Below are positions 30,415 through 32,617 of a stretch of DNA of 64,000 bases, piece by piece. Both the position numbers and the translations under genes were made by a program. The notes below the pieces were generated by a model that saw nothing but the letters and a program-made list of their open reading frames with translations, had not been told where the DNA came from and did no database searches. Origin of the DNA: Bacteroidota bacterium (GTDB taxonomy: Bacteria > Bacteroidota > Bacteroidia > AKYH767-A > OLB10); contig JAGVTU010000017.1 of the NCBI GenBank assembly GCA_019136655.1, positions 62,001-126,000 on the forward strand, read 5' to 3'. Position 1 is the first letter of the stretch; each line of letters opens with the position of its first letter.

Positions 30415-31644
30415 TTATTTCATTGATTGTGTAATCAGATGTCCCATTTTATCTCTCTTGGTCTGAAGATACAGTTTGTTGTGTTCGTTCGAAGCAATTT
30501 CCAAAGGTACTACTTCGACAATCTCCAACCCGTAGCCAATCAGTCCTGCACGCTTGGTAGGGTTGTTGGTCATGAGTTTTATTTTTGAGACTCCCAAGTC
30601 ACGAAGAATTTGTGCGCCTACACCATAGTCGCGTTCATCGGGTTTAAATCCTAAAGCCTGATTGGCTTCAACGGTATCTTTGCCGCCTTCCTGCAATTTG
30701 TAAGCCTTAAGTTTATTCAGCAGACCAATGCCTCTGCCTTCCTGATTCATATAAACGATTACACCTTTTCCTGCTTCTTCAATCATCTCCATGGCTTTAT
30801 GCAACTGAGGCCCGCAATCGCAACGGCACGACCCGAATATATCGCCTGTAAGACATGATGAGTGAACTCTTACAAGTATAGGTTCGTCTTTACTCCAGGT
30901 GCCTTTTGAAAGTGCAAGGTGTTCCTGCCCCGAAGTTACCTGAAGGTAAGCAATCAGTTCAAAATTGCCATGGTCGGTAGGGAGTTTCACTTCCACTTCT
31001 TTTTGAATAAGGCTTTCTGTTTTGAGACGATAAGAAATCAAATCTTCAATAGAAATTATCTTCAGGTTGAAACGTTGTGCAATTTTCATCAAATCGGGCA
31101 GTCTTGCCATGGTGCCGTCTTCATTCATTATTTCCACCAGTACGCCTGCCGGTTCAAAACCTGCCAACCGGGCAAGATCCACTCCGGCTTCGGTATGTCC
31201 TGCTCTCCGAAGTACACCACCGTTTTTGCTTTTAAGAGGGAAAATATGTCCCGGGCGGCCCAAATCTTCAGGTTTGGTGGCAGGGTCTATCAATGCTTTT
31301 ATCGTTTTGGATCGGTCGGAAGCAGAGATGCCAGTGGTACAGCCATGGCCCAGCAGGTCAACAGAAACAGTGAATGGAGTTTCGTGAGAAGAAGTGTTGG
31401 TGCTGACCATCATTTCAAGGTTCAGTTCGTTGCAACGTTGCTCGGTAAGTGTGGCACATATCAGCCCTCGTCCGTGGCTTGCCATAAAGTTTATCATTTC
31501 GGGAGTAGCATTGCGTGCTGCCGTTATAAAATCGCCTTCATTCTCCCTGTCGGTATCATCTACAACTATCACAGCTCGGCCTGCTTTAATCTCACTGATA
31601 GCTTCTTCAATGCTGTTGAGTTGTATGTTTTTGTCAGTACTCAT
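30415..31644 (-). CDS. ribBA: Bifunctional DHBP synthase / GTP cyclohydrolase II
   Basis: A 409-residue fusion enzyme of riboflavin synthesis. The N-terminal 3,4-dihydroxy-2-butanone-4-phosphate synthase has [23 protein letters not shown] and [13 protein letters not shown]. The C-terminal GTP cyclohydrolase II has the zinc cysteines in [16 protein letters not shown] and the catalytic [12 protein letters not shown]. Both active sites look intact. A -7-like TAAATTTG box on the minus strand (31681-31674) lies 30 bp upstream. No FMN riboswitch is visible in the preceding 500 bp. Confidence 0.95.
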
Positions 31645-31869
31645 CTTTAAATGACTGTTTTTGCAAATTTACAACATGGAGCGTTATGATTTGTTTATTT
31701 CTTACAGATGAAAAATGCATGTTCAAGGGTCTTTGACAGCCTATTAAGAATGTATGAACAGGCGAACTCCTGCATAATCTTACAATGGTATTAAACGTTA
31801 ATAATGACGTAACAAAAGGCTAAACAGTCACGTTAAATTAGCCATATCGTTCTTAAGGAAATTGAATAA

Positions 31870-32090
31870 AGATAGTTTGGTTTTAGGTTAGTTTTTCGAA
31901 ACTGATTCAGTAATAAGCCCTGTAAGGCTTAATTCTGAATCGCCTGAACCGCAGAAGAAACAGTTTAAGGTTGGTTTCAGGTGGGGGCTGCCCCGTAAGG
32001 CAGCCCGGCATCTGTACAGTAAAATTGAGATTTGGTTTTAGGGTTATACTTTTAGAAATCACCGCCAACGTGGCGGTGATTTTCTTTTTT
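31870..32090 (+). ncRNA. Candidate structured non-coding RNA
   Basis: Three hairpins occur in order. The first is GATTCAG..TAAGCC-CTGTAA-GGCTTA..CTGAATC (~31910-31950). The second is GGGCTGCC-CCGTAA-GGCAGCCC (31985-32006). The third is AAATCACCGCC-AACGT-GGCGGTGATTT (32056-32082), followed by a T-run typical of a Rho-independent terminator. Motifs TTGGTTTTAGG (31877), TTGGTTTCAGG (31971) and TTGGTTTTAGG (32032) precede the hairpins. Hairpins 1 and 2 share the loop sequence CYGTAA. The terminator orientation suggests transcription on the plus strand. I do not recognise a known family: tmRNA, RNase P RNA and SRP RNA signatures are absent. Confidence 0.45.
32056..32090 (+). terminator. Strong intrinsic terminator
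   Basis: AAATCACCGCC and GGCGGTGATTT are exact 11-bp arms around AACGT, followed by TTTCTTTTTT. No annotated plus-strand gene precedes it, which is why an upstream RNA transcript is suspected. Confidence 0.85.
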
Positions 32091-32131: not shown

Positions 32132-32162
32132 TTTGTAATTCGAATGGTTTCAGCTATATTTG
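32132..32162 (+). promoter_or_regulatory. Bacteroidota consensus promoter
   Basis: TTTG (32132-32135), a 19-bp spacer, then TATATTTG (32155-32162) is a full match to the phylum's housekeeping promoter. It places the transcription start near 32168. The ATG at 32144 is thereby excluded as the start of the next gene, supporting ATG 32192. Confidence 0.8.
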
Positions 32163-32191: not shown

Positions 32192-32617
32192 ATGAAAAAA
32201 TTAAACTTAACAAAAACACTCTTAACAGGTGCTGTATTAGCCCTTATGACTGTAGGTTTCACATCTTGCAAAAAAGACAGTGATCCTGATCGTGAAAAAT
32301 TCATAGGTAACTTTACAGTTACCACAGGTTCAGTTGCATGTGGTGTTACCGGTAACAGCACTATTGCTGCAGGAACTGCTGTGGTAATTTCAGAAAATTC
32401 AGGTGGTGATGAAAAAGTTAGTGTTAACATTGGTGGTCAATTATCACTTGTAGCTACTGCTGACGGAAACACAATCACTATTGATAACCAAACTTTGAAC
32501 GGATTTACTTATACAGGTTCTGGAACTCTTAGCAGCAACACTTTAACTCTTTCTATAAATGAGTTTGATCCTAGTGTTCCTGAGAATTGTGTTTACAGTA
32601 TCACTGCAAATAAATAA
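32192..32617 (+). CDS. Small lipoprotein of unknown function
   Basis: A 141-residue protein from ATG 32192, with a lipoprotein signal (LMTVGFTSCKKD) placing the acylated cysteine at about residue 24. The mature part is a beta-rich domain with alternating Gly/Ser/Thr (FIGNFTVTTGSVACGVTGNSTI...FTYTGSGTLSSNTLTLSINEF). It has two more cysteines and ends NCVYSITANK. It resembles small Bacteroidota lipoproteins with a calycin-like barrel, but no family is certain. A perfect promoter and its own terminator at 32637 make it a single-gene unit. Confidence 0.75.
   Translation: MKKLNLTKTLLTGAVLALMTVGFTSCKKDSDPDREKFIGNFTVTTGSVACGVTGNSTIAAGTAVVISENSGGDEKVSVNIGGQLSLVATADGNTITIDNQTLNGFTYTGSGTLSSNTLTLSINEFDPSVPENCVYSITANK

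Follow-up and report, generated by a model that had tools for sequence, protein, structure and literature searches.

The plus-strand region at about 31841–32090 of the window (the whole 64,000-nt stretch of Bacteroidota DNA analyzed here) corresponds to an RNA gene, present in a single copy in its own genome and divergent from ribBA, whose predicted product would be an independent RNA from a family of tandem hairpins that is centred on Bacteroidota and has an invariant hexaloop, CCGUAA. Sequence comparisons establish the structure on the RNA strand, the invariance of the loop, the tandem repetition, the promoter-like and terminator elements and the conservation, and make it nearly certain that this previously uncatalogued RNA family is real. 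The function can be proposed more tentatively: the reading we prefer, with a probability of roughly 45%, is that the CCGUAA arrays titrate a trans-acting factor, probably an RNA-binding protein.

An earlier note on the window had described three hairpins, each preceded by TTGGTTTYAGG, two of them with a common CYGTAA loop and the last a terminator, and had proposed an independent plus-strand RNA of about 200 nt. All three hairpins fold as described. Hairpin 1 (31904–31941, identified by folding and in the genus alignment) exposes the loop CTGTAA (31920–31925), and hairpin 2 (31978–32014, identified by folding and covariation) the loop CCGTAA (31993–31998); the latter has an 8-bp inner stem and an outer stem CAGGTG/CATCTG and matches the R1 model with an E-value of 2.7e-10. 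The third is an intrinsic terminator (32055–32090) with a 13-bp stem (32055–32083), identical in 4/4 members of the genus and followed by the T-run CTTTTTT. The exact motif search placed TTGGTTTYAGG ahead of each of them on the plus strand, as TTGGTTTTAGG at 31877–31887 (hairpin 1), TTGGTTTCAGG at 31971–31981 (hairpin 2) and again TTGGTTTTAGG at 32032–32042 (terminator), and nowhere else in the 64-kb window; three copies compare with 0.12 expected, and three or more were found in 0/100 shuffles. The folded region has a z-score of -4.39, with equal stability reached in 0/200 shuffles. No ORF longer than 53 aa overlaps the region, and the longest one, of 53 aa, lies on the opposite strand, which ruled out a peptide-coding reading. 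The loop-containing sequence CCCCGTAAGG, used below as a search pattern, occurs once in the window's own genome.

The layout AAC-N16-CGT is that of ECF-sigma promoters, and an element of this kind, whose sigma type is judged from the consensus, precedes the hairpins on the plus strand (31809–31834: GTAAC at 31809–31813, a 17-nt spacer, CGTT at 31831–31834). The genus alignment revealed that GTAAC and CGTTAAATT are conserved and that the spacer varies freely. AAC-N15-17-CGTT was found between ribBA and the first loop in 17/22 loci of the family, vs a mean of 1.0 and a maximum of 5 of 22 in dinucleotide shuffles, with one of the 17 (L031) overlapping the ATCGTTCT motif and probably spurious. Transcription of the RNA is probably driven by an alternative sigma factor of the ECF type. 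With the 5' end predicted from the promoter and the 3' end from the terminator, the transcript would span 31841–32090 on the plus strand; the independent RNA of the earlier note, with its size revised to ~250 nt and its start probably nearer 31841, is well supported by the promoter-like element, the covarying stems, the terminator, the conservation across the family and the lack of coding capacity. Close to the predicted 5' end lies a conserved CGTTCT (31848–31853, plus strand), which appears as ATCGTTCT in most relatives, and the order of elements at most loci is a promoter-like element, often a small hairpin (judged by eye), ATCGTTCT, and then the hairpin units. A sequence resembling this CGTTCT/ATCGTTCT element, CGTTCTTT, is present in arrays L098, L101 and L102. 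Inspection by eye of family f13 revealed a sigma54-like promoter just upstream of the arrays (TGGCACG-N4-TTGC in L094, CGGCACG-N4-TTGC in L093); thus, different clades seem to use different promoters.

The region is flanked by a conserved divergent neighbour, which we take from general knowledge of the sequence to be a ribBA-type riboflavin biosynthesis gene (30415–31644, minus strand), and by a lipoprotein-like gene (ATG at 32192, plus strand). Both possess separate promoter-like elements, which lends further support to an independent RNA. The consensus of the -7-like box is TAnnTTTG; the ribBA gene has the box TAAATTTG (CAAATTTA on the plus strand) at 31664–31671 on the minus strand, in a block invariant in 4/4 genus members, and the lipoprotein-like gene has TATATTTG at 32155–32162 on the plus strand, conserved in the genus alignment, so that the RNA is probably not a leader of the latter. 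Two CTTACA boxes are present on the plus strand, one at 31701–31706, a possible operator with similar motifs seen by eye upstream in relatives, and one at 31779–31784, where ATAATCTTACA is invariant in the genus alignment. CTTACA/TGTAAG boxes, sometimes as the palindrome TTACAnnTGTAA, were also noticed by eye upstream of the RNA in many relatives (L010, L056 and others), and it is possible that they are an operator of the RNA or of ribBA.

The RNA is present in 4/4 genomes of the genus, and the alignment is highly conserved from the RNA start to the terminator; the hairpin 1 stem TAAGCC/GGCTTA of the window becomes TTAGCC/GGCTAA in G002, with the pairing kept. At the level of the family (f1), the unit-hairpin model matches 22/24 genomes, and the best-matching locus of each matched genome is upstream of ribBA, with ribBA on the opposite strand; the near-complete genome G016, from another genus, has ribBA without hairpins upstream. 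Other genera of the family exhibit 2–5 hairpins with the loop CCGUAA (sometimes CUGUAA) and differing stem sequences, and the genes beyond the terminator vary between genera. TTGGTTTYAGG is the genus version of a longer leader, TTGGTTTTxGGTTAGxTTTTAGGTTGATTGTCAGG, found in other genera, and as far as the sequences go, the feature common well beyond the window's family is the hexaloop, not TTGGTTTYAGG. Within the order, another family (f2) has a shorter version by ribBA, usually with two hairpins, the second of which is the terminator. In several f2 genomes (loci L051, L052, L053) there is an additional CCGUAA array with three hairpins, adjoining a gene for a DUF6580-like membrane protein and a TonB-receptor-like gene (both neighbours identified by eye). 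The analysis found no named species in culture for the window's order.

Covarying stems in relatives, which the earlier note had said would support its proposal, are indeed present. The analysis took every clustered CYGTAA site, whether or not it had a stem, and compared its pairing with that of shuffled partners. The 66 sites of the family, from loci found partly via a stem-containing model but not selected for pairing within loci, gave z-scores of 5.1 to 8.1 for flanking pairs 1–8, and the 151 sites of the distant arrays gave 8.6 to 13.2 for flanking pairs 1–6, all of these values being inflated by related sequences and pairs 1–2 of the distant set (unlike pairs 3–6) being partly imposed by the search pattern CCCCGTAAGG. 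AT, TA, GC and CG are all used at several stem positions, the loop is fixed as CYGUAA, and conservation extends to the R-Y-C / G-R-Y pairs adjoining it. Among the fetched loci, 63% of CCGTAA sites lie in stems of at least 4 pairs, vs 1–9% for comparison hexamers. A terminator-like hairpin was identified on the same strand in 34/44 arrays, vs 13/44 on the opposite side, and 18 array terminators themselves bear a CCGUAA-type loop. We propose to define CCGUAA hairpin arrays by at least two CYGUAA hairpins with covarying stems on one strand and by their own downstream intrinsic terminator on that strand; the window exhibits both, the terminator being that at 32055–32090.

At the class level, the pattern CCCCGTAAGG-N15-45-CCCCGTAAGG matches 29/395 genomes (mostly MAGs) and its reversed control 2, a prevalence which is a lower bound, derived from exact patterns. 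Arrays of 5–13 hairpins are present in families f62, f49, f41, f8, f39, f45 and f25, and f13 has an array of four. Across unrelated loci the number of hairpins per locus is 2–13; several distant arrays have A-rich linkers, and several genomes have at least two array loci. The neighbouring genes vary between families (panB-like in f8); gene names beyond the phrog matches are those we presume from reading the sequence. A scan of named genomes returned 17 Bacteroidota MAGs, as judged by their titles only, along with three matches from other phyla that form no arrays. In the phylum-level sample a looser pattern matched mostly at the control (chance) level, but one genome, from a different class, has eight hairpins in an array behind a dnaK-like gene (L127) as well as a hairpin pair behind a dnaA-like gene (L120), and a further genome has a hairpin-plus-terminator pair (L117). 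Matches L066, L069 and L074, from outside Bacteroidota, were dropped, having stems of at most 3 pairs at the matched site; L088, L095 and L096, which are other repeats, and L118, which reads as coding, were set aside.

Among 29 matches in IMG/VR, 13 are contigs of T4-like phages that carry a pair of CCGUAA hairpins, its second member being a terminator (L188, L190, L192–L195, L201, L208–L210, L212, L215 and L216). The pair lies in the 3' UTR, directly behind the major capsid gene (phrog_138, as tested on two of the 13 contigs) and ahead of a PhoH-like gene, and its stems exhibit compensatory differences among the phages. The named phages with the most similar capsid infect Flavobacterium (61% identity), and Rhodothermus phage RM378 is more distant; since a Microcystis phage also ranks high (50%), the phage hosts are only probably Bacteroidota. 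Flavobacterium immuto phages have no CCGUAA hairpins behind the capsid gene; ordinary terminator-like hairpins occupy the capsid-end position in Flavobacterium, Microcystis and Rhodothermus phages, in the immuto phage a UUCG terminator.

The combination of an invariant loop with varying stems, repetition and unlinked loci suggests an RNA that offers many sites to one shared trans-acting factor. The presence of 2–13 hairpins at unrelated loci is what a multi-site binder would show and a regulator acting in cis on a single gene would not, and the relatives in many uncultured Bacteroidota and likely viruses suggest a shared binding partner. According to the titration reading, the RNA would be transcribed from the ECF-type promoter to its own terminator, its repeated loops would offer several binding sites to a single factor, probably an RNA-binding protein, and its synthesis would titrate that factor, as sponge RNAs of the CsrB or EutX type do. 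Further CCGUAA hairpins (at least 6 pairs) outside arrays were searched for in 0.40–0.46 Mb sampled from each of three genomes, and none was found. Dispersed CCGUAA hairpins were thus ruled out as targets in the ~0.4 Mb of each genome; any titrated factor would not be using the same hairpins on many mRNAs, which argues against binding of the CsrA type. We know of no RNA-binding partner in the phylum that fits CCGUAA loops. It is possible, if rather doubtful, that a Bacteroidota-wide system exists in which an RNA-binding protein specific for CCGUAA hexaloops is titrated by multi-hairpin RNAs, and that T4-like phages exploit this system by attaching the same hairpins to their capsid mRNA, which should be one of the most abundant late mRNAs. 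The invariant hexaloop, repeated up to 13 times at one locus, borne on stems whose structure is conserved across families and found also in phages, provides a bait for the factor and an immediate mutational test.

Or perhaps the RNA acts by base-pairing, with the CCGUAA loops or the single-stranded UUGGUUUU/CGUUCU segments as repeated seeds for target RNAs, as in multi-loop anti-Shine-Dalgarno sRNAs? The loops are exposed and identical, their multiplicity would raise avidity, and within the family the single-stranded motifs of the leader are conserved. However, the loop complement UUACGG shows no enrichment around the gene starts of three genomes (3 vs 4.6, 4 vs 9.7 and 3 vs 6.2 expected), which argues against a simple base-pairing seed, and the conservation of the loop-adjacent R-Y-C / G-R-Y pairs need not be required by purely loop-seeded pairing; we regard this explanation as unlikely, though the most serious competitor of titration. 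A separate observation concerns AACCAA, which is enriched at -50..+20 of predicted starts in the G030 and G148 stretches (L148–L187; 19 vs 1.8 and 20 vs 8.6 expected from gene bodies) and not in the window's own genome.

Many arrays are situated behind genes (panB-like in f8, dnaK-like in L127, dnaA-like in L120, the phage capsid) and 18 arrays close with a terminator that bears the loop too, as if the hairpins were mainly 3' UTR or terminator structures that stabilize or end transcripts, with CCGUAA just a favoured loop. Such a role appears improbable, because CCGUAA hairpins are absent elsewhere in the sampled genomes, up to a dozen hairpins precede the array end, a promoter-like element lies ahead of the RNA in f1, and the immuto phage has its ordinary UUCG terminator at the same place. 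It is about equally improbable that the divergent RNA is a cis-acting element of the ribBA locus, controlling ribBA or the gene downstream of ribBA. In f1 the RNA adjoins ribBA wherever it was found, counting the best locus of each genome, and most f2 genomes have one such locus. However, the RNA and ribBA point in opposite directions and ribBA carries a promoter-like box of its own; moreover, genera differ in the genes past the terminator, arrays occur also at unrelated loci in f2 and other families, and no Rfam FMN riboswitch match was obtained. Finally, tandem inverted repeats at many loci could be recombination or protein-binding hairpins in DNA, but the consistent strand relative to terminators and the strict conservation of the loop as read on one strand make this very improbable.

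Several known systems resemble the RNA in part. Rfam 15 yielded no match at the gathering cut-off and permissive scans only chance-level scores, which bears out the earlier note's statement that no known family is involved and ruled out an FMN riboswitch or other known family. V_AS9 scored just under the cut-off over the ribBA coding region of L012, L056, L050, L017, L030, L037 and L013, as expected if V_AS9 overlaps conserved ribBA coding sequence. Among open-licence PMC papers, nothing relevant to the loop or a comparable RNA was found. The CcsR/Cuckoo RNAs of Alphaproteobacteria carry a recurrent, CU-rich anti-Shine-Dalgarno loop sequence in homologous stem-loops; they are alike in the recurrent loops and differ in phylum, loop and leader. 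A related paper is PMC10253847. Rfp18, a strongly structured sRNA conserved in Flavobacterium and described as regulating proteases by base-pairing (PMC9723704), belongs to the same phylum and, in a comparison by description and not by sequence, is alike in its strong structure and its three or more stem-loops. EutX/Rli55, an sRNA whose hexaloop hairpins sequester a loop-binding protein, and the ANTAR dual-hexaloop motif resemble the arrays in their tandem small hairpins with six-nucleotide loops (PMC8934654, PMC3369931). Unlike EutX/Rli55, the arrays reach 13 hairpins, and whereas ANTAR loops require A at position 1 and G at position 4 (PMC8934654), all arrays have CCGUAA/CUGUAA, i.e. C1 and U4, which ruled out an ANTAR-binding dual-hexaloop RNA. 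The ANTAR domain (PF03861) was found above the Pfam cut-off in 0/42 genomes of the order (with five sub-threshold partial matches), and also in none of 14 control genomes. With CsrB/CsrC and RsmY/RsmZ the family shares many stem-loops with one recurrent loop motif per RNA and the presence of more than one such RNA in some genomes (PMC4005645), but its CYGUAA hairpin loops lack the GGA of CsrB/RsmZ. CsrA (PF02599) was detected in 0/24 genomes of the family by a search positive in E. coli, B. subtilis and T. maritima; together with the missing loop GGA, this ruled out a CsrB/CsrA system. Thus, the RNA has a CsrB/EutX-like layout but falls in neither group, since CsrA is absent and the loop is unfit; if it is a sponge, it would represent a Csr-like layer of regulation in a large environmental phylum.
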